A stretch of 64,000 nt of DNA. Source: Levilactobacillus yonginensis (lineage in GTDB: Bacteria > Bacillota > Bacilli > Lactobacillales > Lactobacillaceae). Under the pieces are notes generated by a model. That model saw nothing but the letters and a program-made list of their open reading frames with translations, did no database searches and was not told where the DNA came from. The stretch covers positions 1-64,000 of the forward strand of contig NZ_RHNO01000006.1 in NCBI RefSeq assembly GCF_003946265.1, written 5' to 3'. The translations under genes and the position numbers were made by a program. This document shows, piece after piece, positions 23,732 through 63,663 of this stretch. Every line of letters starts with the position of its first letter. Within the stretch, counting starts at the first letter, position 1.

Positions 23732-23895
23732 CGCCTTGCCGGTTGTCAGATATGGGCTGGAACGGTGCGGACACAACTTGAAGCCTCGAAAAACACGAGT
23801 CTACAAGCTTGGTCTTATTCTAAGCCAGCGGAAAATCACCCGCTGACTAAGAATAATTTCGCGCCTGAGCCCATATCTGCCAACCTCTCGGCTTA
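23732..23895 (+). repeat. Structured intergenic repeat type A, copy 1
   Basis: This is a palindromic element with outer arms CAGATATGGGCT / AGCCCATATCTG, and an inner hairpin TTATTCTAAGCCAGCGG / CCCGCTGACTAAGAATAA. Conserved segments are CGCCTTGCCGG, GGGCTGGAACGGTGC, GCGCCTGAGCCCAT and ACCTCTCGGCTT. Further copies lie at 57359-57523 (minus) and 63501-63663, and a hybrid at 50758-50973. The short ORFs that cross it are not genes. Confidence 0.82.
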
Positions 23896-24011
23896 GATGG
23901 TCGTCAGAAACAGGAACAGTTGCGTATGAGGTGATACTTAGTTGAAGTACGATGAAGTTCATTTAACATCTTGATAATTTCGACAAATAGTACAATGGTC
24001 GTCAATTTAAG

Positions 24012-24181
24012 CCGGAGGTGGTCAGGGGGGCCTGCAGTGAAAATGTCGTTAGCTAGCGTTTTGGGCTGGCTTACGACATGGGCGAATTTGAAGACACGTG
24101 GGTTTCGGGGCTTCAAATCGAGCGAGAAGCCCGTTCTTTGGCTGAAGCGTCCCCACAGCAGGCCCCCCCTGACCACCGGAG
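24012..24181 (+). repeat. Structured intergenic repeat type B, copy 1
   Basis: The ends form an inverted repeat: GGTGGTCAGGGGGGCCTGC at the left and GCAGGCCCCCCCTGACCACC at the right. Inside are GTGTCTTCAAA-like and GGCTTCAAATCGAGCGAGAA segments shared with the copy at 57158-57332 (minus strand). It follows type A copy 1 after about 115 bases in the same orientation, the same order as in the 57-kb copy. Confidence 0.8.
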
Positions 24182-24211
24182 AGCGACTAGGTGCTCTTGT
24201 ATTTATGTACA

Positions 24212-24246
24212 AAAAGGATTCGGGAGGATTGATCCCGAATCCTTTA
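24212..24246 (-). terminator. GH31 gene terminator
   Basis: AAAGGATTCGGGA...TCCCGAATCCTTT hairpin followed by TT on the minus strand. Confidence 0.8.
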
Positions 24247-24280
24247 AATTCCTGTGAATATAGCGGAAATGGTAGCCAGT

Positions 24281-26584
24281 TTATGCCTGATAACTCGCCG
24301 TGGCAGCATCGTAGTGAAGCAGAAGCTGGTGGTCAGCGAGGTCTAGTTGAACGGTTTGATAAACCGGTTCGAAGCCGTGATGGGTGAGATGAACCTGCAC
24401 CTGTCCGTCCGTTACGCTGATAGTATAGCGGTTATAGTGGCCATCCTGGTAGGCAAAGTCAGTCCCGTTGTCCTGATAATGCTGGTAGGAGGTTGTGTTG
24501 CCGTAAAGCTTGAAGGTCATGGTTGTATCAGGTTCATCTGAAATATAGGAAACGGCCGGCCCCCAAGGAAGCACCGTCCCTTTTTTCACGAATAATGGTA
24601 ATTTATCCAGTGGGGCGTCGACGACAACATCTTGTTTGCCACGATACTCTTGATTATTCCAGAAGTCGATCCAGTCCCCAGCTGGGAGGTAGACCAGCCG
24701 CTTAGTCTGAGACTTTTGAACGATGGGCGCTACGAGCAGGCTGTCACCCACCATGAATTCATCGTTCAGGTCGCGGACGCGTTGATCGTCAGGATAATTC
24801 AACACAAGAGGCCGCATGATCGGCAGACCGGTCTGCGTTTCGTCAGCGAACAGGTCGTAGAGGAAGGGGATGAACCGGTAACGTAATTTTAGATAGCGCC
24901 GGTAGATGCTGAGGGTGGGTTCCCCAAAACTCCAGGGTTCTTGGTGCCGCGTTCCCATGGCCGCGTGATTCCGCAACAGCGGGCTGAAGATGGCCGCTTC
25001 GATCCAACGAGTCAGGAGTTCAGCGGACGAATCGGAAGCGAAGCCACCAATGTCGGTACCGGCAAAGCTGAATCCGCTCAGTCCCAAGTTGCAGAGCTGG
25101 GGAATCATCATTTGTAGATGTGGCCACATACTACGATTATCACCAGTCCAGACGGTCGAATATTTCTGAGTACCGGCATAGGCAGCTCGGGTGATGACGA
25201 AGGGCCGTGTGCCTTGATGTTCCTTGAGTCCGGCGTACGTGGCCTGCGCCATGTTGTGGCCGTAAACGTTGTGCATCTTTTGATGGGTAGCGGGGGTGTT
25301 CTGGTCGCTAAACACAGTGTCCAGGGGAATTTCACCGTCAAACGATGCGGGTTCGTTCATATCGTTCCAAATTCCCGCCACGCCGGTATCCGTGAGAATT
25401 TTCGTATTTTGCGCCCACCAGTGGCGAACAGCTGGGCGACCAAAGTCTGGAAAAGCTGAATTACCAGGCCAAACTTTGTTGATGTAGGTTTCACCGGCTG
25501 GGGTCTTCACAAAGTAGTCGTGTTGCAGACCCGCTTGGTAGATGGCATAATCGGGGTCCTGCTTAACGCCCGGATCAATGATGGGGATGACCTTAAATCC
25601 TTGCTGTTTCAGGTGGGCGACGAACTTGGCCGGGTCTGCGTACTTGGCGCGATCCCAAGTGAAGACGCGATAGCCGCGCATGTAGTCGACGTCAAAGTGA
25701 ATGGCGTCGCAGGGGAGATCCTTTTCCCGGAGATTGTCGGCGATGGCTTGTACTTCATTTTGGCTAGCACTGTACCCCCAACGAGATTGTTGGTAGCCTA
25801 AAGTCCATTTCTGAGGCAGTGGCGTGCGACCGGTGAGGTAGGTGTAGTTGGTCACGATAGCTTTCAAGGTGGCACCACCTAGAATGTAGTAATCGAGGTT
25901 GCCGGCCACCGCACTGTAGAAGTAGTAGTGGTCGCTTTCCTTGCCCAAATCCAAGTGACTCTTATAGGGGTTGTCGAAGAAGAGGCCATAAGGGTGGCCG
26001 TTCTTAAGACCTAGTAGCACGGGAATTGATTTATAAATGTTGGGCAGAATTTCTAGTTGGGGGTCGGGGTAATCAACATTCCAGTTATCATATTCAAACC
26101 CCCGTTTGTCGAGGTAACCGGTCTTGTCGCCGAGACCGTAGAGGTGTTCATCTGTGGCTAGTTCTTTGACGACCTGGTAGTAACTTGCATGATCATCAAT
26201 GGTGACGTCGGTCACGCTGTGGCCTTCCGCTTCAACTAGTTTTTGGTGAACTTTATCGACCCCTTTATCAAGGAGGTGGCGCTCACCACGAAAATCAGTG
26301 ATGAGCGCGTGGCCAGCGGCATCGTAAACGTCAACGTGACCGTCAGCGTCGAGCTTGACGGTGAGGTCACTGGTAGTGAGCACGTATTGGTGAGCAACGA
26401 CCGTTAAGTCATAGTCGGTTGGCTGCTGTTTGTCACCTTCAATGGCATAAGACTGGCCGGTTTCACCGCGGTTGGCAAAGACCCGAATGATACTAGGGGT
26501 CAGGATGCTTAATTGTAGTGGTCGGTGGGGGTAATCAAAGGTGATCGTTTGTTGATTTTGCTGATACTTGGGTAAGGTAGACAT
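24281..26584 (-). CDS. GH31 alpha-glucosidase / alpha-xylosidase
   Basis: This 767-aa cytoplasmic glycoside hydrolase releases alpha-linked glucose or xylose from the non-reducing end of oligosaccharides. The GH31 catalytic nucleophile is D408 in GIWNDMNEPASF. Other family segments include the N-terminal beta-sandwich, IHFDVDYMRGYRVFTWD near 296-311, and GTDIGGFASD with the region of the acid/base near 500. No signal peptide is present. AAGGAGTC precedes the ATG at 26584. It stands alone between repeat elements and the Dps operon; no sugar transporter is adjacent, so the physiological substrate is open. Confidence 0.93.
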   Translation of the reverse strand: MSTLPKYQQNQQTITFDYPHRPLQLSILTPSIIRVFANRGETGQSYAIEGDKQQPTDYDLTVVAHQYVLTTSDLTVKLDADGHVDVYDAAGHALITDFRGERHLLDKGVDKVHQKLVEAEGHSVTDVTIDDHASYYQVVKELATDEHLYGLGDKTGYLDKRGFEYDNWNVDYPDPQLEILPNIYKSIPVLLGLKNGHPYGLFFDNPYKSHLDLGKESDHYYFYSAVAGNLDYYILGGATLKAIVTNYTYLTGRTPLPQKWTLGYQQSRWGYSASQNEVQAIADNLREKDLPCDAIHFDVDYMRGYRVFTWDRAKYADPAKFVAHLKQQGFKVIPIIDPGVKQDPDYAIYQAGLQHDYFVKTPAGETYINKVWPGNSAFPDFGRPAVRHWWAQNTKILTDTGVAGIWNDMNEPASFDGEIPLDTVFSDQNTPATHQKMHNVYGHNMAQATYAGLKEHQGTRPFVITRAAYAGTQKYSTVWTGDNRSMWPHLQMMIPQLCNLGLSGFSFAGTDIGGFASDSSAELLTRWIEAAIFSPLLRNHAAMGTRHQEPWSFGEPTLSIYRRYLKLRYRFIPFLYDLFADETQTGLPIMRPLVLNYPDDQRVRDLNDEFMVGDSLLVAPIVQKSQTKRLVYLPAGDWIDFWNNQEYRGKQDVVVDAPLDKLPLFVKKGTVLPWGPAVSYISDEPDTTMTFKLYGNTTSYQHYQDNGTDFAYQDGHYNRYTISVTDGQVQVHLTHHGFEPVYQTVQLDLADHQLLLHYDAATASYQA

Positions 26585-26699
26585 GCTTTTAAGACTCCTT
26601 TTGGATGTTTCTCTTCTATAATAGACGGTTACCCCTGACTAATACAAACGGTTGCATTAACGGTCATCAATTTGAACAGGCTAATTTTGGCAACAAAAA

Positions 26700-26737
26700 A
26701 ATAGTGTTAGCACCTCGCAGTGTGCTAACACTATTCT
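26700..26737 (-). terminator. HMA-dps operon terminator
   Basis: ATAGTGTTAGCAC / GTGCTAACACTAT perfect 13-bp stem with a T run on the minus strand. Confidence 0.9.
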
Positions 26738-26746
26738 TAACGCTGG

Positions 26747-27298
26747 TTAATCATCGTCATCATCGTCTTCTTCATCCAGACCGTCACGAGCATCGTTGCC
26801 CAGCAGAGCTTGGAGTTCGCGAATGATGTGGTTGTTCGTCCCACGTAAGTCGGTTAGGAAGCTAGCCAAAGCGGGCCGTTCCTCCTTCTCAGCCAGTTTG
26901 ATGGCCCGGTCGATGAATAAGTTATGCGTGTCGGCGTCGTGGACTAACTCGCTAATTTGTTCTTCAGCGGGCAAGTACTTCTTGTCGCCACCTTCTTGCA
27001 GCATGTTGTAGTCGTGAAATTCTTTAGTCGTGGTTGAGACGATTTCGCCTTCATCTAAAAGCAATTCACCCAGCGTATCGAACTGTTGACGGTAGGTGGC
27101 GATATAGTCGTTGAGCAGTTGACGGACGCTCAGAGCCAGCGGACCCTTGACGGACCAGCGAACCTGATGGAATTTCACGATGGAAATGTGCAGGTTGGAG
27201 AGAATGTGGTTGGTCATGGCACCAGCGGTGGGAACGTGGTGGTCGTGTTCAGTTTGGGCTTGTTCGGCAGCGTAACGGTCTTCAATAGTAGTAGTCAT
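26747..27298 (-). CDS. dps: Dps-family ferritin-like protein
   Basis: This 183-aa protein belongs to the Dps/mini-ferritin family, which oxidises and stores iron and protects DNA. The four-helix bundle core is visible, with KFHQVRWSVKGP (His of the inter-subunit ferroxidase site) and FDTLGELLLDEGE (acidic ligands). The C-terminus is an acidic tail ending in a run of eight aspartates/glutamates, which would not favour direct DNA binding. It lies 30 bases downstream of the HMA gene and is transcribed with it from the FNR-like promoter. Confidence 0.87.
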   Translation of the reverse strand: MTTTIEDRYAAEQAQTEHDHHVPTAGAMTNHILSNLHISIVKFHQVRWSVKGPLALSVRQLLNDYIATYRQQFDTLGELLLDEGEIVSTTTKEFHDYNMLQEGGDKKYLPAEEQISELVHDADTHNLFIDRAIKLAEKEERPALASFLTDLRGTNNHIIRELQALLGNDARDGLDEEDDDDDD

Positions 27299-27328
27299 TG
27301 GATGAACTTCCTTTCGGTGAGTGGGGGA

Positions 27329-27556
27329 TTAGAGAGCTTTAACTTTAGAGCTTTGCACAGCATAGCCTAGGTCGGTGACGGTATTTTCGAGGTCATCGGC
27401 AGATACGGCCGCGTCATCAAACTCGGCTTTGACCTTGCTGGCGTTGAACAGAACCTTGACGTTCTTCACGCCGTCTTTTTTGTTTAAGGCGCCTTCGATT
27501 TTAGTCATGCAAGATGGGCAGGTCAGTGCGTCTAATTTCATGGTTACTTTACTCAT
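27329..27556 (-). CDS. HMA-domain metal-binding protein (CopZ-like)
   Basis: This 75-aa protein is a single heavy-metal-associated domain with the metal-binding pair C13-P-S-C16 (DALTCPSCMTKIEG) and the betaalphabetabetaalphabeta pattern of CopZ-type chaperones. AGGAGG precedes the ATG. It is the first gene of a two-gene operon with dps. Since the ATPase at 21661-23562 lacks an HMA domain and has the same operator, this protein is a good candidate to hand metal to that pump; this link is inference. Canonical CopZ proteins have MxCxxC; here the motif is LTCPSC. Confidence 0.87.
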   Translation of the reverse strand: MSKVTMKLDALTCPSCMTKIEGALNKKDGVKNVKVLFNASKVKAEFDDAAVSADDLENTVTDLGYAVQSSKVKAL

Positions 27557-27600
27557 AATGAATACCTCCTAGGTTTTCGTTTGTCTTGATTACATAAGTT

Positions 27601-27645
27601 AGTATACGGTCGTCAGTGATAAAAGAACTTGACTCAAATCAAGTT
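27601..27645 (-). promoter_or_regulatory. FNR-like box and -10 of the HMA-dps promoter
   Basis: AACTTGACTCAAATCAAGTT (27626-27645) has the same 7-bp arms and 6-bp spacer as the ATPase box. TATACT lies on the minus strand at 27606-27601. The distance from box centre to -10 is 29.5 bp, identical to that in front of the ATPase. Confidence 0.75.
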
Positions 27646-27767
27646 CGCCGATTTATTTGAAGAAAATCAAAAATTGCTAACTGCACCGGCGGTTAAGTCT
27701 TTGTGTTTCGCAATAAAGCTAAGTATGCGACAATGGGTGCAGAGTGAAAATTAAGTGAGGGACTATA

Positions 27768-28928
27768 ATGGGAAAAACAAAAAAAGAAGTGAGTATGGCC
27801 GGTATCGTGTCGGCGACCCTTCTATTAAACGCTGCGGCTGCGTGTATGTGGCCGTTAACGACGGTCTACATGCATAATCAACTCCATCAAAGTCTGACGC
27901 TGGCGGGGATTGCTTTGCTGGGGATGTCGTTATGCATGATTCTGGGCAACTGGTTGGGTGGCCGGATGTTTGACCGCTGGTCGCCATTCTGGTCAGCCAT
28001 TGTGGGGACGCTCTGTTCATTCGTTCCAATGGTGACGTTGATATTTGCCCACGGGTGGCCAATCTTTGGTATTATGCTACTTTTCATTGGGTTAGGCGAC
28101 GGTATCGTGATGACCGTGGTCAACTCCTTTGCGGCGACCGTGAAATCAGTTGAGAGTCGTAAAGTTTTCAATTATCTCTATATTGGCATGAACTTAGGGG
28201 TCGTTGTCGGTACGTTGATGGTGGGGGTTCTGATGGCTCACGGGGTCACCCTAGTCTTTATCGTGGCGGCGTTGAGTTATCTAGCGCTGTTGCTGATCTT
28301 CTTGTTTGATTTCCGGGCGGACATTGAACAGAAGAGCTTCGAACATAGTCGGGGACCCGCTAAACCAGCCCAGTTGAATCTGATCTGGCTAATTGCTTTT
28401 CTGGTCTTTTGCCTCTATATGAGTTATTCCCTGTGGGAAAGTGTGATTTCGGTTCATATGACGGGCTTAGGGATCTCATTTGAAAAGTACAGTCTGCTCT
28501 GGACGCTGAACGGTCTCATGATCGTCTTCGGACAACCAATCGTCAATCGGTTGGCAGCACGCTTCCAGTTGAGCTCTCAGATTTGGGTCGGAACTCTGAT
28601 TTTTATTCTCTCCTTCCTATTGTTAGTGTTTGCTAAGAGCTATGCCATGTTTGTCCTGACCATGGTTATCTTAACGTTTGGTGAGATGACCGGGTTCCCG
28701 GGAATTCCCGCGTGGATCGATGGCCTGGCTGGCGATAACGACAAAGGCAAGTTCCAGGGAATCTATAACATGGCCATTTCATTTGGTCGGGCAGTGGGGC
28801 CTTTGTACGGTGGTTTGATTATTGAATACGGTAGTTATCAATCCTTATTCTGGTTAGTAACGGGCCTGATGTTGCTGGCACTGGCTGGTGTGATGGGCCG
28901 TAACCGGCTGAATCGCAGGAGAGGGTAA
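27768..28928 (+). CDS. Major facilitator superfamily transporter (drug-efflux type)
   Basis: This 386-aa protein has about twelve membrane helices. The MFS loop 2-3 motif is visible as GNWLGGRMFDRW, and the central loop is short, as in DHA1 multidrug exporters. GAGGG precedes the ATG. It is divergent from the HMA-dps operon, but the FNR-like box in between is positioned only for the minus-strand operon. Substrate is unknown. Confidence 0.83.
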   Translation: MGKTKKEVSMAGIVSATLLLNAAAACMWPLTTVYMHNQLHQSLTLAGIALLGMSLCMILGNWLGGRMFDRWSPFWSAIVGTLCSFVPMVTLIFAHGWPIFGIMLLFIGLGDGIVMTVVNSFAATVKSVESRKVFNYLYIGMNLGVVVGTLMVGVLMAHGVTLVFIVAALSYLALLLIFLFDFRADIEQKSFEHSRGPAKPAQLNLIWLIAFLVFCLYMSYSLWESVISVHMTGLGISFEKYSLLWTLNGLMIVFGQPIVNRLAARFQLSSQIWVGTLIFILSFLLLVFAKSYAMFVLTMVILTFGEMTGFPGIPAWIDGLAGDNDKGKFQGIYNMAISFGRAVGPLYGGLIIEYGSYQSLFWLVTGLMLLALAGVMGRNRLNRRRG

Positions 28929-28947
28929 CACCTTTAAATAGCAGTGT

Positions 28948-28992
28948 GAGTGGCTTTTACTGAACCTTTAGGGGGACAGTAAAAGCCTTTTT
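28948..28992 (+). terminator. MFS gene terminator
   Basis: GGCTTTTACTG...CAGTAAAAGCC stem followed by six T residues. Confidence 0.85.
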
Positions 28993-29600
28993 TGGTGGTG
29001 TAAGCCCGGCATAAACCGGTGTGGGCCGGGGAATCCAGGCTCGAAACAATTTTTTTTGGTGTCCAGAAGAATAATTTGGCTAGTGAGAAGGTCGACTTTG
29101 TGAATTGGTATACCTATAACGGGAGATACGGGTATACCGCTTTTCCGAAATGAAAACAGGGCCTTCATAGTTGAACGATAATGAGAAAACTCTAATGATA
29201 TTCCGCCGGGTTACAGTTTAAATGGGTAAATTTAGTCGTGTACAACTGAAAGACGTCGCTTACTATTTTATTTGGTTACTTTAAAAACGAGCAAATGGCC
29301 CTTCACAAGGGGGTTTGGAAGGCCTAGTCTTATGCGAAAACCCATAATGAAGTTTGTGTATTATGTAATTAATACGAGCAGTTCATTAAAAAATCTTTTG
29401 TAAAAATATTCGCATGCAACGTTTTCAGTAAAAACGACCAAATCCAGTGTCACTAAAGGGGAAAGCGCTTCCAATCACGTGATAATTGACTTCTGTTTTT
29501 GAAAAAAATTCGACGAAATTCCATGAAAGCCTTGCCAATTCCATGTGAAAGGTATAGCATAATAGTCGTAGTTAAATAACTTACAAGGAAGTGTTTTTAC
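28993..29600. other. Gene-free stretch upstream of ald
   Basis: About 600 bases with no convincing gene. The 66-codon minus-strand frame at 28968-29168 overlaps the terminator and has no ribosome binding site. The right half carries two cre-like sites and AT-rich promoter-like sequence leading to ald. I see nothing else recognisable. Confidence 0.5.
29414..29473 (+). promoter_or_regulatory. Two cre-like sites upstream of ald
   Basis: On the minus strand TGGAAGCGCTTTCC (29473-29460) fits the CcpA site consensus well, and TGAAAACGTTGCAT (29427-29414) fits less well. They lie 130-190 bases upstream of the ald start. Carbon catabolite control of amino-acid breakdown is inferred. Confidence 0.55.
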
Positions 29601-30713
29601 ATGCAAATTGCCGTTATTAAAGAGCAAAAGGAAGGCGAAGGCCGTGTGGCCGCAACACCTGAAAATGTTCGCAAGATGGTAGAAGCAGGTAATGAAGTAC
29701 TGGTTGAAAAAGACGCTGGTGTCGGTGCTGGTTTCAGTAACGATGAATTCGTCGAAGCTGGTGGGAAACTCGTTAGCCATGCTGAAGGTTGGAAAGCTGA
29801 CCTGATCATCAAGGTTAAGGAACCAGATCCAGAAGAATACCAATACTTCTCCAAGGGCAAGATTGTTTGGGGCTTTCAACATTTAGCTTCATCTAAGCCT
29901 ACTGTAGAAGCAATGATGAAGGCTGGTACGACCGCAATTGGTGGCGAAACTATCGTTGAAGATGGCAAGCTGGCATTGCTTTCCCCTATGAGTCAAATCG
30001 CAGGGCGTCGTTCAGTTATCATGGGTGCTTACTACTTGGAAGCACAACACCAAGGCGAAGGTATCTTACTTCCAGGTATCCCTGTTCCTGGTATCCACGC
30101 TGGTAACGTTGTTATCTTTGGTGGTGGTAACGCTGCTATTGGTGCCACAGATATGGCTTTAGGTTTGGGTTGCTCCGTAGTTATCATTGAATTAAATGAT
30201 GACCGGATCAAAGAACTTGAAACTCAATTTGCTGGCAAGAACGTGCGTGTTGTTAAGTCCAACGAAGAAAACTTGGCTAAGGAAATCAAGGATGCTGATA
30301 TCTTTGTATCAACTATTCTTATTCCTGGTTCTCGTCCACCGAAGTTGGTCAAGGAATACATGGTTAAGTCAATGAAGAAGGGCTCCGTTATCGCCGATGT
30401 TGCCATCGACCAAGGTGGGACCGTTGAAACGATTGACAAGCCTACGACTATTGACGACCCTGTATTCATCAAAGACGGCGTTATTCACTATGCTGTTCCT
30501 AACCAACCAGGTGCTGTTCCACGTACCGCTACGATGGCACTTGCTGCAGGAAACTTGAAGTACTTATTGGAAATCGCTGACAAGGGCATCGATGATGCTA
30601 TCAAGTCCGATCCAGCCTTAGCTTCAGGGGTCAACCTGTACGAAGGTAAAGTTACTAATGAAGGTTTGGCTAAGTCACTCGACTTACCATACACTGAATT
30701 ACAAAACGCTTAA
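29601..30713 (+). CDS. ald: Alanine dehydrogenase
   Basis: The enzyme interconverts L-alanine and pyruvate plus ammonia with NAD+/NADH. The 370-aa length is standard. Substrate-binding residues appear at R15 (EGRVAATP), the lysine in IIKVKEP (about 71-73) and H94 in GFQHLA; the NAD+ fold is VVIFGGGNAAIGATDMA. AAGGAAG precedes the ATG. It heads a probable amino-acid catabolic cluster with threonine dehydratase and two permeases. Codon use is of the highly expressed kind. Confidence 0.96.
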   Translation: MQIAVIKEQKEGEGRVAATPENVRKMVEAGNEVLVEKDAGVGAGFSNDEFVEAGGKLVSHAEGWKADLIIKVKEPDPEEYQYFSKGKIVWGFQHLASSKPTVEAMMKAGTTAIGGETIVEDGKLALLSPMSQIAGRRSVIMGAYYLEAQHQGEGILLPGIPVPGIHAGNVVIFGGGNAAIGATDMALGLGCSVVIIELNDDRIKELETQFAGKNVRVVKSNEENLAKEIKDADIFVSTILIPGSRPPKLVKEYMVKSMKKGSVIADVAIDQGGTVETIDKPTTIDDPVFIKDGVIHYAVPNQPGAVPRTATMALAAGNLKYLLEIADKGIDDAIKSDPALASGVNLYEGKVTNEGLAKSLDLPYTELQNA

Positions 30714-30784
30714 TAATCGCTTATCTTACTTAGGTTTCAAAACTTAAAAGTTTGAGTTTCAAACACAATTGAGGAGTGAAAATA

Positions 30785-50757: not shown

Positions 50758-50973
50758 CGCCTTACCGGCCACAGCAGATGGGCTGGAACCGTGTCGACGG
50801 TTGGCAGGGCGGGGCCTGCTGTGTCGACGGTGTTAGCCGATTTTCGGCTTACAGCGTGGGACGTGTTTGAAGACTGGTGAGGTTGGTTTCCAGGCTTCAA
50901 ACCGAGCCGAAGGACCGCTTTTCAGGCCGCAGGTGTTCCCCACAGCAGGCGGAATCTCTGACCGCCGCAGGTG
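50758..50973 (+). repeat. Structured intergenic repeat, A/B hybrid
   Basis: The left part has the type A start (CGCCTTACCGGCCACAGCAG, ATGGGCTGGAAC). The right part has type B features (GTGTTTGAAGAC, CAGGCTTCAAACCGAGC, TCCCCACAGCAGGCGGAATC). A segment CGGTTAGCC-like / GGCTTAC hairpin lies in the middle. It looks like a fusion of both types in one copy. The remaining gap to the GDPD gene shows nothing else. Confidence 0.65.
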
Positions 50974-51079
50974 GCTGGTGAGGCTAATTTTAAGTCTATA
51001 ACGCCTTATTATTCTCGGTTTGATACCGGTTTTCTAACTTTCAACCTTTAGCTGAAACACCTAAAATTCACCTACACCG

Positions 51080-55921: not shown

Positions 55922-55940
55922 GAATTATTGTGAATAGCGG

Positions 55941-55977
55941 AAAAAAAGGTCAGGTGCTGAGGTATCTGACCTTTTTG
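55941..55977 (+). terminator. adhE terminator
   Basis: AAAAAGGTCAG / CTGACCTTTTT hairpin. Confidence 0.88.
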
Positions 55978-56208: not shown

Positions 56209-56370
56209 GAAAGTGACCAAATTTTTGCGATTATTTGGTGCAAAACACACCTAAAATTTACCCTCTTTTTCGCTAAAATGGGCAAATATGGGGTCAAAAA
56301 AGCGGTTTATGTGACAACAAGGTTACAAAAATTACGGAATGTCATACAGTAATATTTTTCTTAACACTGG

Positions 56371-56414
56371 CGTAACACAACGCCAATCTGGCTGACACAA
56401 CCATCGGTTATTCT
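56371..56414 (+). promoter_or_regulatory. WalR-like promoter of Apf gene 1
   Basis: GTAAC-N7-CAATC (56372-56388) followed 25 bp after the start of CAATC by the -10 TATTCT (56409-56414). The layout is the same in front of genes 57862 and 58741; here the third half-site is TGACAC. Confidence 0.62.
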
Positions 56415-56452
56415 AATACCCGTTAAGCAAACAAAGGAGGACATTCATTCTT

Positions 56453-57058
56453 ATGAATATCAAAAAAGCTTTAGTTAATACTTTGGGTACGGTTGCCGTT
56501 GTCGGTGCCGGTATCTTCGCCACTAACGTCACGGCCAACGCCGATACTAATGTTACGGTCAAGCAGGGGGATTCTGTTTGGTCATTAGCTAGCAAGTATG
56601 ATTCATCCGTTAGTGCCATCGAAAAGGCAAACAGCCTGAGCAACTCCAACCTGATTTTCGTGGGTCAAAAGTTAAACGTGCCAAGTAGCACGCAAACTGC
56701 CACGAGTTCAGCTAACGTTTCTACTAAAAACTACAGCAACCAAGCAACTACTACGCCAGCTAGCCAATCCACGACTAGCCAAGCAACCACGAACAACCAC
56801 ACGAGCACGACTTCTGCTTCTACTGGTGTTTCTGGTTCAGAAGCCAGTGCTAAGGCCTGGATCGCTAACAAGGAATCTGGCGGTTCATACTCAGCTACTA
56901 ACGGCCAATACATCGGTAAGTACCAACTGAGCTCTTCCTACTTGAACGGTGACTACTCAGCCGCCAACCAAGAAAAGGTTGCCAACTCATACGTTGCTTC
57001 CCGTTACGGTTCATGGTCAGCTGCCCAATCATTCTGGCAAGCAAACGGCTGGTACTAA
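56453..57058 (+). CDS. LysM and Apf-domain secreted cell-wall protein 1
   Basis: This 201-aa protein has a signal peptide (cleavage near ANA/DTN), a LysM peptidoglycan-binding domain (residues about 30-76, VTVKQGDSVWSLASKYDSSV to GQKLNVPS), a Ser/Thr linker and a C-terminal Apf-type domain of about 75 residues (AKAWIANKESGGSYSATNG to SFWQANGWY). The latter is the aggregation-promoting-factor domain, related to lysozyme-like folds; the Glu in NKESGG may be catalytic. AGGAGG precedes the ATG. The promoter matches those of the next two genes. Confidence 0.9.
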   Translation: MNIKKALVNTLGTVAVVGAGIFATNVTANADTNVTVKQGDSVWSLASKYDSSVSAIEKANSLSNSNLIFVGQKLNVPSSTQTATSSANVSTKNYSNQATTTPASQSTTSQATTNNHTSTTSASTGVSGSEASAKAWIANKESGGSYSATNGQYIGKYQLSSSYLNGDYSAANQEKVANSYVASRYGSWSAAQSFWQANGWY

Positions 57059-57102
57059 ACCTAGTTTAGGTACGCCAACCAACTTACGTTTAAATTCAAG
57101 TT

Positions 57103-57138
57103 ACGCCCTTCGGATGCAGGTCTGATGGGCGTTTTTTG
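57103..57138 (+). terminator. Terminator of Apf gene 1
   Basis: ACGCCC...GGGCGT stem followed by TTTTTT. Confidence 0.65.
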
Positions 57139-57157
57139 TTGTCTAACTAAAGGCGCA

Positions 57158-57332
57158 CTCCGGTAGCCAGAGATTCTGCCTGCTGTGGGGACGCTTCAAC
57201 CAAAGGGCGGGCTTCTCGCTCGATTTGAAGCCACGAAGAACCTGTGTCTTCAAAGTCGCCCGTGCTGTAGACTGGAAAATCACCAGTTAACACCACCTTC
57301 ACAGCTGGCTACATCCCTGGCTACCTCCGGCT
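57158..57332 (-). repeat. Structured intergenic repeat type B, copy 2
   Basis: On the minus strand the ends read CCGGAGGTAGCCAGGGAT and, at the other end, AGATTCTCTGGCTACCGGAG-like, i.e. the terminal stem is kept although its sequence differs from copy 1. GTGTCTTCAAA, GGCTTCAAATCGAGCGAGAA and TCCCCACAGCAGGC are conserved inside. Confidence 0.8.
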
Positions 57333-57358
57333 CTGATTGATAGTAGAGGACGACTGTG

Positions 57359-57523
57359 TAAGCCGAGAGGTCGCCAGATATGGGCTCAGGCGCATCGTTC
57401 TGCTTAGTTAGTAGGCGGTTTCCCTACTAGCTTAGCAGAAGACCAAGCTTGTAGACTCGGTATTTTCGAGGCTTCAAGTTGTGTCTGCACCGTTCCAGCC
57501 CATATTTGGTGGCCGGTAAGGCG
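57359..57523 (-). repeat. Structured intergenic repeat type A, copy 2
   Basis: On the minus strand: CGCCTTACCGGCCACC, ATATGGGCTGGAACGGTGC at the left; inner hairpin TTCTGCTAAGCTAGTAGG / CCTACTAACTAAGCAGAA; and GCGCCTGAGCCCATATCTGG plus ACCTCTCGGCTT at the right. A and B have the same order and orientation as at 23.7-24.2 kb. Confidence 0.82.
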
Positions 57524-57759
57524 GAAGAACACACTGAGTTGTCTAACTTTACGCGCTGAATTTGGCTAGAAATTGCGGTTTAGTCCCCAAAAAAGTGGTG
57601 AATTCACATTTTTTGATCGATTAATTTAGGAGAGAAACTGTGTCAAACTGATGGTTTCGTCATACCAACGCAAAATAAAGGTCGAAAACCCGGTTAATGT
57701 TGCAACCTTATTAACCACATTACGCTTTGTCATTTAAGCCGTTTTTTCTTAATGTGGGT

Positions 57760-57802
57760 GTAACTCAGGAACAATCACGGTGTAACCTCCACAGGTTATG
57801 AT
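57760..57802 (+). promoter_or_regulatory. WalR-like promoter of Apf gene 2
   Basis: TGTAAC-N16-TGTAAC direct repeat (57759-57764 and 57781-57786, 22 bp apart) with CAATC between; the -10 TATGAT (57797-57802) lies 25 bp after the start of CAATC. Confidence 0.7.
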
Positions 57803-57861
57803 ATATCTCGTTAAGTAATTGATAGACAGATTCACTAATCAAAAGGAGGACATTCATTTTT

Positions 57862-58506
57862 ATGAATATCAAAAAAGTTTTAGTATCTACATTGGGAACT
57901 GCAGCCGTTTTAGGCGCTGGCTTCTTCGCTAGCACCACTTCCGCAAATGCCGACGTCCGGGTTTCGGTTAAGTCGGGAGACACGGTTGCTAAGATCGCTA
58001 ACCAATACAACTCCAGTGTTTCATCAATCGAACAAGCAAACAACTTAAAGAACGTTAACTTGATTTACGTCGGTGAATCCTTAGTGATTCCTAGCGCTGC
58101 TTCAACTAGCACTAGCACGACTACGGCGGCTACGACTGGTTCAACGACCACGACGACGCCTAGCCAATCAACGACGTCAAACACGAACTCAGCAAACTAC
58201 AGTGGCACTTCTAACTACAACCACAATACTGCCTCAACTGGGACGACCAGTTCAGCTTCTACGGCTTCGACGACCACATCTGGCTCAAGCTCTTCAGCTA
58301 AGTCATGGATTGCGAACAAGGAATCCGGTGGCTCATACACCGCTACGAACGGGAACTACTATGGGAAGTACCAATTGAGTAAGTCTTACTTGCACGGTGA
58401 CTATTCAGCCGCTAACCAAGAAAAGGTAGCGAACTCTTACGTATCTTCTCGTTATGGTTCATGGGCTGCTGCCAAGTCATTCTGGCAAGCAAACGGCTGG
58501 TACTAA
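57862..58506 (+). CDS. LysM and Apf-domain secreted cell-wall protein 2
   Basis: This 214-aa protein is a close paralogue of the 56453-57058 product. It has a signal peptide (cleavage near ANA/DVR), LysM domain (VSVKSGDTVAKIANQYNSSV to GESLVIPS), a longer Ser/Thr linker and an Apf domain (AKSWIANKESGGSYTATNG to SFWQANGWY). The ribosome binding site and first codons (AGGAGGACATTCATT, then NIKK) are almost identical to gene 1, so the pair arose by duplication; a type A/B repeat pair lies between them. It is probably abundant at the cell surface. Confidence 0.9.
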   Translation: MNIKKVLVSTLGTAAVLGAGFFASTTSANADVRVSVKSGDTVAKIANQYNSSVSSIEQANNLKNVNLIYVGESLVIPSAASTSTSTTTAATTGSTTTTTPSQSTTSNTNSANYSGTSNYNHNTASTGTTSSASTASTTTSGSSSSAKSWIANKESGGSYTATNGNYYGKYQLSKSYLHGDYSAANQEKVANSYVSSRYGSWAAAKSFWQANGWY

Positions 58507-58545
58507 ACTGATTTAGATCAGTAACTTAATTAAATCACGAAATAA

Positions 58546-58582
58546 ACGACGGAAAAGTCCTAGCGGCTGACCGTCGTTTTGT
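58546..58582 (+). terminator. Terminator of Apf gene 2
   Basis: AAACGACGG...CCGTCGTTTTG hairpin. Confidence 0.65.
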
Positions 58583-58664
58583 CGTACCAAAATCCCGCTA
58601 TTTCGGCATTTTGACGATGAATGTTACACCAGACTGCAAAAAATGGGGTTGGCCGTTACGGTTT

Positions 58665-58708
58665 TGTAACATTCGGACAATCTGGCTGTAACGTTTAAAC
58701 GTTATGCT
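58665..58708 (+). promoter_or_regulatory. WalR-like promoter of Apf gene 3
   Basis: TGTAAC at 58665-58670 and TGTAAC at 58687-58692 are 22 bp apart with CAATC (58678-58682) between; the -10 TATGCT (58703-58708) lies 25 bp after the start of CAATC. Confidence 0.72.
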
Positions 58709-58740
58709 AAACTTAACAAATTCGCTAGGAGGGAAAATCT

Positions 58741-59091
58741 TTGAAATTAAAATCATTTTTCATGGTCATCGTGATGGTTCTTACGTTGGCCGTTCCTAGC
58801 GTCACATCCGTTGTGACTCCAGCAACGACAGCAGAAGCCAGCACAACTTATGTTTCCACGTTATCCAAGAAGGAACAGAAGGCTAAGGCCTGGATCGCTA
58901 TGAAGGAATCTGGCGGTAATTACCGCGCCCGTAATGGTCGTTACTACGGGAAGTACCAATTAACGATTTCCATGTTACGTGGGGACTACAGCAAGACTAA
59001 CCAAGAAAAGACCGCTGACAAGTACGCGCACAACCGTTACGGCTCGTGGACGAAAGCCAAGCGTCACTGGTTAGGCTACGGCTGGTTCTAA
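58741..59091 (+). CDS. Apf-domain secreted protein 3 (no LysM)
   Basis: This 116-aa protein has a signal peptide (cleavage near AEA/STT) and then almost directly the Apf domain (AKAWIAMKESGGNYRARNG to HRYGSW and a final GYGWF). It lacks the LysM and linker of its two neighbours. The start is TTG at 58741 after GGAGGG. The promoter has the same WalR-like design. The Glu of MKESGG is retained. Confidence 0.87.
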   Translation: MKLKSFFMVIVMVLTLAVPSVTSVVTPATTAEASTTYVSTLSKKEQKAKAWIAMKESGGNYRARNGRYYGKYQLTISMLRGDYSKTNQEKTADKYAHNRYGSWTKAKRHWLGYGWF

Positions 59092-59108
59092 CTTAAAACT
59101 TAACTGAA

Positions 59109-59150
59109 ATAAAATCCCTACTAGTCGGTTGGCTAGTGGGGATTTTTTGT
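59109..59150. terminator. Bidirectional terminator, Apf gene 3 / Pip gene
   Basis: AAAATCCCTACTAG...CTAGTGGGGATTTTTT hairpin between convergent genes. Confidence 0.87.
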
Positions 59151-59174
59151 GTTTGGGTGGGAAAAGTCAGGCGG

Positions 59175-60569
59175 TCAATCAGCAAGTTGATTCTGTTTTA
59201 AGTCTAAATGAAAGCGAAGGATGATCAATAAGTTGAAACCCACAGTCATGGCAATCATCATCAGCCAAGCCCCGGGAAGACTTACATTGGTGGAGATTGC
59301 CGAACGGAGAACTTGAATCAAGTAGGTCATGGGTAGCCAAGGATTCACTAGTCTGGCCAAAGGGCTAACTAGCGGCAGGGGGTAGAGGCCACCGGAGCTG
59401 GCTAACTGGAAGACGAGCACGATGGAGATGAGCCAAGTGCCAAAACCGCCTAGTAAGAGTCGCAGGCAGAAGATGAGGGAGAGAAATAGCAGTGATCCGA
59501 GAAAAATCGCTGCCAGTAATTCAACCTGCGAACGGGCGGCAAGGTGATTGGCAAGAGCCAACGTGCTAGCGAGAATACCACTCTGTAGAATAGCAACCCC
59601 GCCGATTAGCAAGGCTTTGCTGCCCCACCAGTTCAGGGCCGACTGGGGTCGTTCATAAGTTCGGTGACCGTCGTACATGGTCCCTAGGGCAATCCCACCA
59701 ACGTAGAGGCCAATGGCAATAGCAAAGGGGGCCATACCGGTCCCATTGTTTGGAACGCTGGCCACGTCATGTGTCTGCGCGACGATTGGTTGGGTAATGG
59801 CAGTGGCGTTGGCCGGTCCAGTTTGAATACCGGCCAGTCGACCACTGCCGGTAGTGAGAGCGTCACTCAGCTCTGCATTGCCTTGCTCTAGACGCAGTAG
59901 GCCGGTCATTGAGGCAGTGAGTCCTGCAGATAGTGCTGGATTGTGAATCGGCGTTGTAGAAGTTTGCAGTTGTTGATTGCCATTTAAGAGTCGCTGAGTG
60001 CCACTGGTTAACTGGGTGTTACCAGCAGCGACACGGCTCATGCCGGTCGTACTTCCCCGTAGCGCTTGTAGAAGGGTAGTTGATTCCAGTTGAGTGACGC
60101 TATGGCTGACCTTAGCTGTAATTGTGTTCGCCACACCGGTCGTCATTTTAGAGACGATGAAGTTAGCACCGGAATTGATCTGATAGTGAAGGCGTAGTCT
60201 TTGAGGAGTTTTAGTCAGAAGAGTTGTCGCATTCTGTGAGAAGTTATGAGGGATGGTGACAATTAGATAGATTTTCCCTTGACGTAACTGATGATTGGCA
60301 GTGGTATCGCTCAGTTTATGAAAGTCTAGGGAAGTTGAGGTTTTCAAGTTATGCGTCAGGGATTGGCCAATGGCAATGTGATGGTTGTGGAAGGTAACGG
60401 GATGGTCGTGGTTAACGACGGCAACGGGGAGGTCGTCTGTGTGGCCGTACGTGTTCCACATGGAGGAGAGGTACAGGAAACAATAGATTGCGGGAATCAA
60501 GGCAATCATAAACAGGACGACGAACGTTTTCTTATGTTGACAAAGAAATTGCCATTCACTTTTGAACAT
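59175..60569 (-). CDS. YhgE/Pip-family membrane protein
   Basis: This 464-aa protein has the YhgE/Pip layout: one N-terminal helix (residues about 15-35), an extracellular domain rich in Gln/Thr/Asn (about 40-275) and five or six C-terminal helices with an ABC-2-like arrangement. Relatives are phage receptors (Lactococcus Pip) or ESX/T7SS accessory proteins. ATG 60569 follows AAAGGTG; the longer frame to 60650 is not used. It is divergent from a TetR gene that probably regulates it. Confidence 0.85.
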   Translation of the reverse strand: MFKSEWQFLCQHKKTFVVLFMIALIPAIYCFLYLSSMWNTYGHTDDLPVAVVNHDHPVTFHNHHIAIGQSLTHNLKTSTSLDFHKLSDTTANHQLRQGKIYLIVTIPHNFSQNATTLLTKTPQRLRLHYQINSGANFIVSKMTTGVANTITAKVSHSVTQLESTTLLQALRGSTTGMSRVAAGNTQLTSGTQRLLNGNQQLQTSTTPIHNPALSAGLTASMTGLLRLEQGNAELSDALTTGSGRLAGIQTGPANATAITQPIVAQTHDVASVPNNGTGMAPFAIAIGLYVGGIALGTMYDGHRTYERPQSALNWWGSKALLIGGVAILQSGILASTLALANHLAARSQVELLAAIFLGSLLFLSLIFCLRLLLGGFGTWLISIVLVFQLASSGGLYPLPLVSPLARLVNPWLPMTYLIQVLRSAISTNVSLPGAWLMMIAMTVGFNLLIILRFHLDLKQNQLAD

Positions 60570-60592
60570 CAAATCACACCTTTCAAATAAAC

Positions 60593-60762
60593 ACTTGGTT
60601 GATTGACCGTCTACAGAATACGCATTGAAACTGAGGGAAGCAATCAACAATTTAGTGAGAGATGTTTGGTGTTAGGGCAAGATAAATAGCCTAGATTCTG
60701 GTTTCATCGCATATGATTAGTGACATAACTAGCAACAGAAATGATCACGTTGTTGATTGCTT
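60593..60762. promoter_or_regulatory. Candidate TetR operators in the Pip/TetR gap
   Basis: AAGCAATCAACAA (60638-60650) and its exact inverse TTGTTGATTGCTT (60750-60762) flank the gap, and a related TTGGTTGATTGACC lies at the left end. Two sites about 112 bp apart could bind a looped TetR dimer pair. Binding is inferred. Confidence 0.45.
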
Positions 60763-60828
60763 GGTGGTAGGAAAAGATGATTTAATTGGGGCAGAAAGTT
60801 CAGTGACCGATTATTTGGGGGGATGGCT

Positions 60829-61389
60829 ATGGAAAGTAATACGCAGGTATTGATGACGGAAGCTAGATTGCAACGCGCTTTTATTAAATTAATGGCGCAG
60901 GAGGGCTTTGACCGGTTGACGGTTCAGAAACTTACTCGGATTGCAGGTATTAATCGCGGAACGTTTTATTTACACTACTTGGATAAGTTTGATCTGTTGG
61001 CACACTATGAGGGGGAACTAGTTCAGCAGGTTACTGAGATCTTTCAGCGTTACACCAAGCCAGTACGGGTAACGGATACGTCACCAACGCGGGATGCCTT
61101 CTGGCAATTCTTTCAGTACGCCTATCGGCAGCGTGCGCTATTGATCACCCTGCTTCAAAGCCCCGCTTCTAGCCTCATGACTCAGACAAAAGCGGTTATC
61201 AATCAGGTCGTTGGGGTCCCACTGACTAAGGAGATGCCAACTGACTTTGCTCAGGAACTCATATCGCAGGGAATCTTGGATTTCATTATTTTTTGGTTAA
61301 CGCGACCAGAAGTATTAGCTCCACGGGCCGCCTACACAATCTTTGTGCAGTCGCGGACCCTTTCACCGCAGCAGTTATTAACCGAGTAA
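60829..61389 (+). CDS. TetR-family regulator
   Basis: This 186-aa protein has an N-terminal TetR helix-turn-helix (LTVQKLTRIAGINRGTFYLHYLDKFDLL) and a C-terminal TetR_C_7-like domain. ATG 60829 is preferred because the GGGGGG run ends 6 bases before it; ATG 60823 overlaps that run. It is divergent from the Pip-type gene and most likely represses it. The inducer is unknown. No terminator separates it clearly from ackA, but ackA has its own strong ribosome binding site and a 111-base gap. Confidence 0.86.
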   Translation: MESNTQVLMTEARLQRAFIKLMAQEGFDRLTVQKLTRIAGINRGTFYLHYLDKFDLLAHYEGELVQQVTEIFQRYTKPVRVTDTSPTRDAFWQFFQYAYRQRALLITLLQSPASSLMTQTKAVINQVVGVPLTKEMPTDFAQELISQGILDFIIFWLTRPEVLAPRAAYTIFVQSRTLSPQQLLTE

Positions 61390-61500
61390 GTGCAAAGAAT
61401 GGACCAGTTTTTCACTAAAACGAGAATTCTTTCTTGAAAACGGTTACAAAATTCTTTAGACTAGGAGGTAACCGAGAAAAAAACGATTGGGAGGAGTATC

Positions 61501-62688
61501 ATGGCAAAAACATTAGCAATTAACGCAGGTAGTTCAACACTGAAGTGGAAACTCTTTTCCATGCCCGAAGAAAAAGTTATCGCATCGGGTCTGGTTGACC
61601 GTTTGAACTTACCCGGTTCCATTTTTAAAGTGAAATTAGCGGACGGTAAAAAGATTACCGATACGCAGGATAACATTACGAATGAACTCGCAGCAGCAAT
61701 GGTGCTGACGCGGTTGAAGTCCTACGGTATCGTGAAACACCTTAGCGAAATCACTGGGGTGGGTCACCGAATCGTTGCTGGTGGGGAAGTCTTCAAGGAC
61801 TCCGCTGTCATTACGCCAATCGTACTCAAACAGATCAAGGAACTGAAAGACTACGCACCCCTTCACAATCCCGTGCAAGCGTACTACGTGGAAGTCTTCC
61901 AAAAGTTACTGCCAGAAGCCAAGCAGGTCGCTGTCTTTGACACGTCACTGTACGCTGACATGCCTGCAGTTAACTATATGTACAGCATTCCTTACGAATA
62001 CTATGAAAAATTTGGTGCCAGAAAGTACGGCGCTCACGGAACCAGTCACCGTTACGTGGCTCACCGTACGGCCGAATTGCTGGGCAAACCGCTAGAGGAA
62101 CTCAAGTTGATCACGCTGCATTTGGGCTCTGGTTCGTCCGTCACGGCCTTTGACCACGGTCACGCTATCGATACCTCGATGGGCTTCACGCCGCTCGCAG
62201 GGGTCATGATGGGGACCCGTTCTGGGGACATTGACGCTTCATTGGTCGCCTTCCTGGCTGAAAAGCTCCACAAGACGATGCCAGAGATGATCGATGTTTT
62301 AAACAATAAGTCTGGGTTACTTGGTATTTCAGAACTTTCACCCGACCAACGGGACCTGGAACAGACCCAGGATGAACGGCCAAAGTCTAAGTTGGCCCTG
62401 CAGATGTTTGTTGACCGCGTTGTTCGCTACGTGGGGAGCTACATTGCTGAACTAGGTGGTTTGGATGCCATCGTCTTCACGGCGGGTTCTGGTGAAAATG
62501 GTGTTGAGATGCGCCAAGCGGTTGCCGATAAGCTGAGCTACTTTGGCATTGCCATCGACCCAGCCAAGAACGATTTCCGTGGGGAAGAACACATTGTGAG
62601 TCCTGATGGCAGTCACATCAAGACGTTAGTTGTACCAACGAATGAAGAATTAATGATCGTGCGAGACGTTGAACGTCTGACCAAATAG
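61501..62688 (+). CDS. ackA: Acetate kinase
   Basis: The enzyme interconverts acetyl phosphate plus ADP and acetate plus ATP. In phosphoketolase metabolism it is the ATP-yielding acetate branch. The 395-aa protein has the N-terminal ASKHA motif LAINAGSSTLKWKLF, the acyl-binding HGTSHRYVA region, and the GSGSSV phosphate loop followed by AFDHGHAIDTSMG, with TAGSGENG near the C-terminus. GGGAGGAG precedes the ATG at 61501. A terminator follows. Confidence 0.97.
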   Translation: MAKTLAINAGSSTLKWKLFSMPEEKVIASGLVDRLNLPGSIFKVKLADGKKITDTQDNITNELAAAMVLTRLKSYGIVKHLSEITGVGHRIVAGGEVFKDSAVITPIVLKQIKELKDYAPLHNPVQAYYVEVFQKLLPEAKQVAVFDTSLYADMPAVNYMYSIPYEYYEKFGARKYGAHGTSHRYVAHRTAELLGKPLEELKLITLHLGSGSSVTAFDHGHAIDTSMGFTPLAGVMMGTRSGDIDASLVAFLAEKLHKTMPEMIDVLNNKSGLLGISELSPDQRDLEQTQDERPKSKLALQMFVDRVVRYVGSYIAELGGLDAIVFTAGSGENGVEMRQAVADKLSYFGIAIDPAKNDFRGEEHIVSPDGSHIKTLVVPTNEELMIVRDVERLTK

Positions 62689-62717
62689 GACGCAGGTTTA
62701 ATTGCGTATGATTATAG

Positions 62718-62764
62718 GTGAAAAGCAGTCTACCAAGTTAGCTTGGTCAGACTGCTTTTTTCGT
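62718..62764 (+). terminator. ackA terminator
   Basis: AAAAGCAGTCT...AGACTGCTTTTTT hairpin. Confidence 0.9.
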
Positions 62765-62998
62765 TTAGCGGGCACAGGGTGGCGTCGCATAAATCCCCCA
62801 ATAATACCGTATCATAACGGTGTTAAGGGTAGCTTAAGTGGACCATTAACCCTTTCTTGAACACTATGTCATTTTGGTAAAGGCCGTGACAAATTGTCAT
62901 GAAATTTACGTTCGCTTAATCAATCGGTAACGTGGCAATCACGGGTTTGAGATATTGTGGCAGTAAGCTATGGGTAATCGAAAGGGAGGAACACATTG
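62765..62998 (+). promoter_or_regulatory. Leader of the 3D-domain gene with partial WalR-like motif
   Basis: GGTAAC...GGCAATCACGGG (62927-62944) resembles the GTAAC/CAATC block of the Apf promoters but with different spacing. GGGAGG for the gene lies at 62984-62989. Nothing else is recognised in this gap. Confidence 0.35.
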
Positions 62999-63496
62999 AT
63001 GATTAAGAAAGTAATTATCACCACGTTAAGTACCGCCGCCGTTTTAGCCGCAGGTATCGGCGCCTCCAGTGTGACCGCAAATGCCAGCACCCTTCATTCG
63101 CAGGCACCACGGAGCGCACAACGTTATCACTACCAACCACAAACTTCAACCTATGGGGCATACACCTCAGCTACTAAGAGTACGGGCAACATCAAGACGA
63201 CCACTGCCAGTGCCACGACGACCCAGGCAAGTGGCGCCACCATTACGGTTGCCCAATTTGAAAGTCAGGGCGTCGTTTACCTCAACGGAAATAAGTGGAC
63301 GTACTATTCCGGGAGTTTGACCGCTGATGGCACAAAGATCAGTGCCAACGGCCTGGATCCTAATGGTTACCGGGTCGTGGCCGCTCCAGCCAACGTGGCT
63401 TTTGGGACGAAGATTATGACGCCGTTAGGGATGGGTGTCGTGCATGACCGCGGGACGGCCATCACTGGCAACCACTACGATGTTGTGATTCAGTAG
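62999..63496 (+). CDS. Secreted 3D-domain protein
   Basis: This 165-aa protein has a signal peptide (cleavage near ANA/STL), a low-complexity Thr/Ser/Ala region to about 80 and a C-terminal domain of the 3D/double-psi beta-barrel type (TKISANGLDPNGYRVVAA to VVHDRGTAITGNHYDVVIQ). The aspartates at HDRG and HYDV match the three-Asp pattern. Family members remodel peptidoglycan (lytic transglycosylase-related). ATG 62999 follows GGGAGG; the in-frame TTG at 62996 is too close. Confidence 0.82.
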   Translation: MIKKVIITTLSTAAVLAAGIGASSVTANASTLHSQAPRSAQRYHYQPQTSTYGAYTSATKSTGNIKTTTASATTTQASGATITVAQFESQGVVYLNGNKWTYYSGSLTADGTKISANGLDPNGYRVVAAPANVAFGTKIMTPLGMGVVHDRGTAITGNHYDVVIQ

Positions 63497-63500
63497 TTGG

Positions 63501-63663
63501 CGCCTTACCGGTCACAGCAGATGGGCTGGAACGGTGCCGACACAATTTTAAGCCTCACCAAGCCCGTGAGTCTTAAAACTTGGTCTTATTCTAACTGCCA
63601 GAAAACCACTGGCACTAAGAATAACGAGGCGCCTGAGCCCATCTGCTGCGACCTCTCGGCTTT
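63501..63663 (+). repeat. Structured intergenic repeat type A, copy 3
   Basis: CGCCTTACCGGTCACAGCAG, ATGGGCTGGAACGGTGC at the left; inner hairpin TTATTCTAACTGCCAG / CTGGCACTAAGAATAA; GCGCCTGAGCCCATCTGCTG and ACCTCTCGGCTT at the right. The outer stem CAGCAGATGGGCT / AGCCCATCTGCTG differs from copy 1 but stays paired. It begins 4 bases after a stop codon. Confidence 0.82.

Follow-up and report, generated by a model that had tools for sequence, protein, structure and literature searches.

REP and BIME elements, with their RAYT transposases, are paired inverted palindromes located between genes. According to the review passages drawn on here, insertion sequences can move related bacterial MITEs (Correia/NEMIS, ERIC, pneumococcal BOX, RUP and SPRITE) in trans, and RNase III cutting and inversion have been noted for Correia elements (PMC10969869, PMC3049150). 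The family reported here, from Levilactobacillus yonginensis, resembles these MITEs, as those passages portray them, in being short, in lacking a transposase, in having terminal inverted repeats (TIRs) and target duplications, in its intergenic location and in its strong fold when transcribed (PMC10969869, PMC3049150). It differs from them in carrying a mirrored pair of distinct multibranched arms, each rich in compensatory changes and with its internal loops conserved, and in that the arms are constrained and the spacers are not; moreover, the arms are not AT-rich (G+C 0.40-0.66, mostly 0.5-0.6), AT-richness being typical of MITEs and not obligatory. In comparison with REP/BIME elements, the family does not depend on a Y1 gene, has TIRs and target duplications and possesses much longer arms. 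Lac-1 of Lactobacillus johnsonii is likewise a repeated stem-loop family in a lactobacillus, and the part of its description used here, which reports it within coding sequences, sets it apart (PMC2267715). The string 'Lactobacill' is absent from the main text of the bacterial MITE review, and a literature search that covered few subscription papers found no account of this type A/B repeat family.

The window, that is, the whole stretch of 64,000 nucleotides analysed, is part of contig C56 of the L. yonginensis genome (2.69 Mb, 63 contigs). We consider it probable that the repeat copies in it belong to a non-autonomous MITE family of the IS4/ISPepr1 type, of which they represent parts that are intact, truncated or fused, as explained by the model set out below. 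The kind of jumping element is thus one already known, and the reason for its elaborate folds is a testable question.

Repeat copies, transposon ends and an IS4-family partner

The earlier note had placed three type A copies and one hybrid in the window. Our model matches all three copies, at 23733-23894 (+), 57360-57522 (-) and 63502-63662 (+), and the hybrid at 50758-50973 proved to be the left end of an A arm (50759-50798) fused to a B arm (50794-50970); the stems that had been quoted and their paired changes were also found in the sequence. Hereafter, arm strands are those that read outward from the spacer. The A arm of copy 1 (23733..23894, -; nhmmer match of 171 bits, alignment row A1) is separated by a spacer of 111 nt (23895-24005) from its divergent partner, a B arm at 24006..24183 (+, 153.7 bits), and the A arm of copy 2 (57360..57522, +, 169 bits) is separated by a spacer of 23 nt from its partner B arm at 57155..57336 (-, 177 bits). 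Copy 3 is a solo A arm (63502..63662, -, 135 bits) that lies 5 nt past an ORF end and is also present at the same place in two related genomes, G028 and G032, with orthologues 98.1% and 100% identical. In the hybrid, the A-arm left end lies on the - strand (20.3 bits, and read from the sequence) and the B arm, of a second subtype, on the + strand (106.6 bits); an exact right TIR, CTAAAGGTTGAAAG, lies beside it at 51038..51051 (-), and no left TIR was seen for the hybrid at 50759-50970. Therefore, the repeats, including the A copies and the hybrid, had been described correctly, while the B arms beside copies 1 and 2, the TIR at 51038-51051 and the transposon architecture had been overlooked. 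A direct repeat at 57 kb, AGTTAGACAAC, was rejected as a target duplication because a near-identical stretch is subterminal sequence of other copies. In the same window, the ORFs at 56453-57058, 57862-58506 and 62996-63496 share signal-peptide-like starts (M.IKK...ANA), and arms lie between or directly behind them.

The 14-mer CTAAAGGTTGAAAG occurs in 20 exact copies in the L. yonginensis genome, versus none for the pattern read backwards, and is found in 23 of 35 genomes of the genus. Among the fetched loci, 35 distinct units are bounded by CTAAAGGTTGAAAG TIRs with at most three mismatches over both ends, a set that includes two overlapping units with a common right end (L179) and one site in two species (L262, L269); 30 of these units are armed, two are the insertion sequence described below and three are short and armless. 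Target duplications (score of at least 6) flank 19 of the 35 units, compared with 7 of 1,190 mismatched flank pairs, and 16 units are without a clear duplication. Of the 19 duplications, 18 are exact and 6-9 bp long (for example GTATATTAA, CTATATA, TTAATGA, TTGTTGA, CTGTTTAA and TTAACCAT), and the remaining one (L383) is 11 bp with one mismatch; 17 of the 30 armed units have such a duplication. At 266-749 bp, the armed units are too short for a transposase gene. On the contig that holds the window, both ends were found in one unit and a single end in two others (12-mer, at most one mismatch). A two-arm unit at 71954-72509 has an 87.5% identical paralogue at another place in G028, and the two are homologous from just within the left AAAGGTTGAAAG repeat (lost in the G028 copy) up to the right repeat, which is kept in both. 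In this model, a full unit consists of a 14-bp inverted repeat, subterminal DNA, a left-outward arm, a spacer, a right-outward arm, subterminal DNA and a second 14-bp inverted repeat.

These ends bear directly on a further explanation, namely that a RAYT (Y1) transposase moves the copies as REP/BIME-like repeats, as their number, intergenic location, palindromic form and inverted pairing could suggest. The units carry TIRs and target duplications, neither of which Y1 elements are known to make. In addition, 12 of the 35 genus genomes have no Y1 match (E up to 0.001), among them G002, G018 and G019, which are nevertheless rich in arms, with at least 83 scored arm matches each. RAYT mobilization is therefore highly improbable and, barring recent loss of Y1 genes, largely refuted.

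A complete insertion sequence with the same ends was found in genome G014. It is 1,559 bp long, with perfect CTAAAGGTTGAAAG TIRs and an 8-bp duplication (CTGATTAA), and its open frame of 489 codons, or about 450 amino acids from the first Met, encodes a transposase that scores 469.9 bits against the NCBIfam model IS4_4 (NF049925; cut-off 250). The YREK residues are present in protein P0001 with the spacing Y-X2-R-X3-E-X6-K, which we take to be the IS4-type YREK motif. A transposase piece used as query matches 13 of the 35 genus genomes (G001 and G031 at E of just about 1e-4), and an exact TIR also adjoins transposase matches, on one side or both, in G001, G003, G006, G017, G020 and G030. The L. 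yonginensis genome itself contains one relative of the piece, 53% identical, whose ends are, by eye, related to these but distinct from them. Accordingly, the earlier statement that no transposase is present holds for the surroundings of the window copies, where none was found; elsewhere in the genus there is a matching one. Relatives of the transposase were also found in 161 plasmid records, including L. brevis. On a L. plantarum plasmid (NZ_CP035114.1, 67901-69205; L385), an IS4 transposase relative lies in three pieces with no listed gene, with an exact CTAAAGGTTGAAAG at one end; the other end was not found.

In the section of the subgroup's description consulted here, ISPepr1-type elements are 1,500-1,600 bp long, with ends YT-AA-YTT---A, duplications of 7-8 bp and AT-rich targets (PMC2266710). 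The insertion sequence in G014 agrees with that description in length, duplication, ends and YREK residues, CTAAAGGTTGAAAG differing from the end consensus at one position (G for Y at 7), and the relative on the L. brevis plasmid fits the consensus fully (PMC2266710). Together, the 14-bp inverted repeats, the target duplications and the ends held in common with an IS4-family element identify the units as a non-autonomous IS4/ISPepr1-type MITE, an identity that is well supported for units with ends; solo A arms such as that at 63502-63662 are presumably remnants of full units. We propose that an IS4/ISPepr1-type transposase would move the units in trans into AT-rich intergenic sites. As far as seen, the ends alone are common to the armed units and the IS4/ISPepr1-type insertion sequences, so the resemblance to a transposon end is confined to the outer 14-bp ends and does not extend to the folded arms, which are absent from the matching insertion sequence. 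Because that insertion sequence is armless, the transposase alone cannot account for the arms.

Pairing and constraint in the folded arms

RNAalifold applied to 39 copies from the L. yonginensis genome gave 49 consensus pairs, 26 of which show at least one double compensatory change. In the outward reading, the A arm is built of a long, variable outer stem and a conserved internal loop (CA opposite GUUCC), inside which a short stem leads to a three-way junction bearing two stem-loops. The outer-stem columns (11-20/157-166) vary most, with a majority base of 0.79, yet remain paired, and the GGAAC side of the GGAAC/TG loop is 0.97 conserved at each position and recognisable in other genera. Covariation was examined with sequences from other genomes, using 106 matches from 96 other loci, of which the best 81 rows were kept and 74 remained after removal of rows at least 97% alike; G statistics were compared with those of 120 alignments simulated along a FastTree tree with no pairing between columns. 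In this test, our own implementation modelled on R-scape and run on an alignment fitted to the model, 34 of the 49 pairs were significant (E < 0.05; 74 other-genome sequences, tree-based null), so that the proposal that folding is under selection was borne out. When all 11,781 column pairs were tested, 29 were significant, of which 24 lie within the structure.

The arms also change slowly where they stand. In eight A-B units of this genome with spacers of 85-125 nt (28 pairs), the A arms are 91.2% and the B arms 83.5% identical, and the spacers are 71.3% identical versus 72.3% when shuffled; a conserved internal promoter in the spacer, a candidate considered for these units, is therefore unsupported. 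We aligned the contig with those of G028 and G032 over 134 kb, and at places common to the three genomes the arms are present, lost or inverted. At three loci where G028 or G032 also has both arms, five comparisons gave differences at 85 of 1,661 arm positions (5.1%), 208 of 1,089 spacer positions (19.1%) and 55 of 536 positions in adjacent flanks; the difference between arms and spacers gives a Fisher p of 1.4e-30, the positions not being independent. Across the aligned contig, divergence from G028 is 5.0% in arms, 6.6% in coding sequence, 6.9% in other non-coding sequence and 15.3% in spacers, and the corresponding values for G032 are 8.7%, 9.5%, 9.3% and 20.5%. The arms thus diverge clearly less than the spacers and just slightly less than genes; since matches within the L. 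yonginensis genome were detected down to 74% identity, detection alone should not produce the gap between arms and spacers. From 28 arm comparisons, four were set aside (one paralogue, one at 65% identity and two at an inverted locus), and in a hand recount of the other 24 the stems differ at 4.6% of positions and the loops at 8.5%. Among their 1,409 pairs, there were 10 double compensatory changes, 37 changes to GU, 28 to AC and 26 other mismatches; pairing after insertion is under modest constraint and is not perfectly maintained.

Paired changes of this kind could also arise by mutation, if template switching at an imperfect palindrome rewrites one half of a stem to match the other. That the outer stems are the most variable part and still pair would agree with such a process, and some arms were lost by deletion between the stem sides, which indicates that slippage happens there. 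However, template switching should wipe out asymmetric internal loops, yet the GGAAC side is retained, and it leaves the nearly fourfold lower substitution rate of arms relative to spacers unexplained; we thus regard it as an improbable source of the covariation, for which selection on the fold is preferred.

At two loci, the orientation of the units differs between species. At the site of 23733-24183, the A-B unit of G028 (C1 23260-23648) faces the other way next to the same terminator-like hairpin; the A arms are nearly identical and the spacers differ. Likewise, C56 129196-129569 and G032 C1 near 1956095-1956462 represent the same site with the two-arm unit inverted whole, the arms being nearly identical (by eye) and the spacer unrelated. 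This inverted, spacer-swapped unit is explained neither by a role of the arms in read-through RNA nor by one in folded DNA, the two roles discussed below.

Distribution, orientation and possible role of the arms

With copy 1 as a BLAST query, 42 matches were found in the L. yonginensis genome (E up to 0.001). The covariance model, trained on 39 A copies from this genome, gave at least 72 matches there (83 of 892 candidates scored), and the B arm at least 41 (40 of 165 candidates scored); the fetched loci contain 111 arms (44 A and 67 B), and 26 arm matches lie on the contig that holds the window. When the search was carried to related Lactobacillaceae, as the earlier note had advised, the model matched 34 of 35 genomes of the genus, this one included. 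Under a stricter filter than in the genus search, 47 of 201 genomes and 10 of 40 genera matched in a family-wide sample, as did 11 of 295 genomes in an order-wide sample, all 11 from the same family. In an exact 16-mer scan of named genomes, the organisms with many matches among those listed are Levilactobacillus species; the others have one each, apart from a Rhizobiaceae contig with two, which is about the chance level for a 16-mer. An A-B unit of the L. yonginensis genome searched against plasmids (72,556 records) and phages (50,697 records) with blastn at word 11 gave no match. The earlier note recognised no named family, and Rfam gave no match at gathering score on the window repeats or on 20 further loci; over 57100-57700, a search at E up to 10 returned just three matches, all far under their gathering scores. 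The sole Rfam match of the window at gathering score is an M-box magnesium riboswitch (ykoK leader, RF00380) at 2343-2511 (-), with 133 bits.

The A and B arms are homologous in their inner part, the A model matching B arms from about position 39. The 71 composites of the L. yonginensis genome comprise 36 two-arm, two three-arm and 33 single forms, with spacers of 23-423 nt, and at the fetched loci every one of the 36 two-arm units is divergent, each arm being read on its outward strand. Among 20 loci from other genera, 12 have more than one arm match (E up to 1e-4), of which 10 are mirror pairs in the same order; the exceptions are three arms at L374 and two same-direction arms about 840 nt apart at L375. 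In G112, arm matches at C4 201752-202475 and C5 138464-138782 cluster in the same direction, unlike the mirror pairs elsewhere.

Outside the genus, these ends were seldom found with the arms. In a second genus, arms of G223 lie between nearly the same ends, with 1-3 mismatches, but nine of the ten genomes fetched from other genera, representing five genera, showed no end within two mismatches near the arms, and three matches with three mismatches near arms in those nine look like chance. In the copies of G164 and G209 (L374-L377), GGCGTTGGTGG/CCACCAACGCC-like inverted repeats lie on either side of the arms and may be other element ends in that genus. The arms might accordingly themselves form the recombining termini of another mobile element, for which IS4-type units are merely one vehicle that picked them up: ten genera have arms, such TIRs are missing from their vicinity in five of the six other genera examined, the spacers look interchangeable, and the 129-kb locus combines near-identical arms and an inverted unit with an unrelated spacer. 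Against this, no boundary or duplication set by the arms themselves was found, and in the best-resolved paralogous pair the homology reaches far beyond the arms, spanning the unit from just within the left TIR up to the shared right one, so that we judge this origin unlikely and retain the IS4/ISPepr1-type MITE as the unit that moves. Nevertheless, the arms are its unusual feature, being absent from the insertion sequence, covarying, found without these ends in other genera and slow to evolve in place.

The position of the units is biased as well. By simple ORF calls, just 4 of the 46 composites in the L. yonginensis genome with both neighbours known lie between divergent genes; on the contig that holds the window, none of 17 does, such gaps making up 3,853 of 22,130 bp, and the counts are 0 of 13 in G028 and 0 of 10 in G032, some of these sites being common with that contig. 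Composites therefore avoid the gaps between divergent genes, and several lie 5-35 nt from an ORF end.

Several comparisons favour the outward strand of the arms. Wobble-type mismatches in copies from the L. yonginensis genome favour it by 34 to 6 in A arms and 91 to 30 in B arms, an excess that is weak beyond this genome (37 vs 28 in the genus, 9 vs 4 in other genera) and, counted by column in other genomes, stands at 12 vs 14; being strong in one genome and weaker in others, the asymmetry counts as supporting only. With RNA parameters, the outward strand folds better in 29 of 39 A and 49 of 57 B arms of this genome, in 40 of 49 A-like arms from other genomes of the genus and in 20 of 31 arms from other genera. 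DNA parameters also favour the outward strand, and more evenly (36 of 39, 56 of 57 and 29 of 31), so that the strand preference cannot separate RNA from single-stranded DNA. With regard to an intrinsic-terminator function, no U tract was seen by eye after the outward arms in the listed sequences.

For the role of the arms, we prefer an effect on read-through transcripts. The arms would act as RNA within transcripts that start in neighbouring genes and run on through the unit; owing to the mirror arrangement, a transcript from either side would end in one arm in its better-folding orientation, and that arm would end, shield or stabilise the transcript, so that the element is tolerated downstream of genes. 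A role of folded DNA in transposition is nearly as likely. In that case, the arms would work as hairpins or cruciforms in single-stranded DNA at replication, the fold being selected in the transposition cycle, and they may join both ends or draw a host protein or the transposase. We regard this as a serious possibility, in keeping with the single arrangement in which two-arm units hold their pair, with the more even strand preference under DNA parameters and with the lack of support for a spacer promoter. However, the insertion sequence with the same ends is armless, and the arms are constrained after insertion at shared loci, which selection in transposition alone would not demand. The earlier alternatives of a structured RNA or a palindromic mobile element are thus both partly right: the fold is under selection and the copies are parts of a mobile element with TIRs and target duplications, whereas an RNA role is what we infer for the arms. 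More tentatively, and with doubt prevailing, the arms may constitute a novel type of structured RNA module, mobile and paired in mirror fashion, that has spread in the Lactobacillaceae, would be active after insertion in the read-through transcripts of neighbouring genes, would be held by selection on host and element and may be joined to different transposon ends in different genera.

These findings place at least 111 structured arms, unmatched in Rfam and counted in the fetched loci of this one genome, between the genes of a group of food bacteria, where they may shape transcript ends, and the covariance model would aid annotation too. Importantly, a MITE with arms much better conserved than its spacer, and after insertion at least as well conserved as genes, offers a system for asking whether an RNA structure functions for the element or for its host, a question that is testable because a matching transposase exists.
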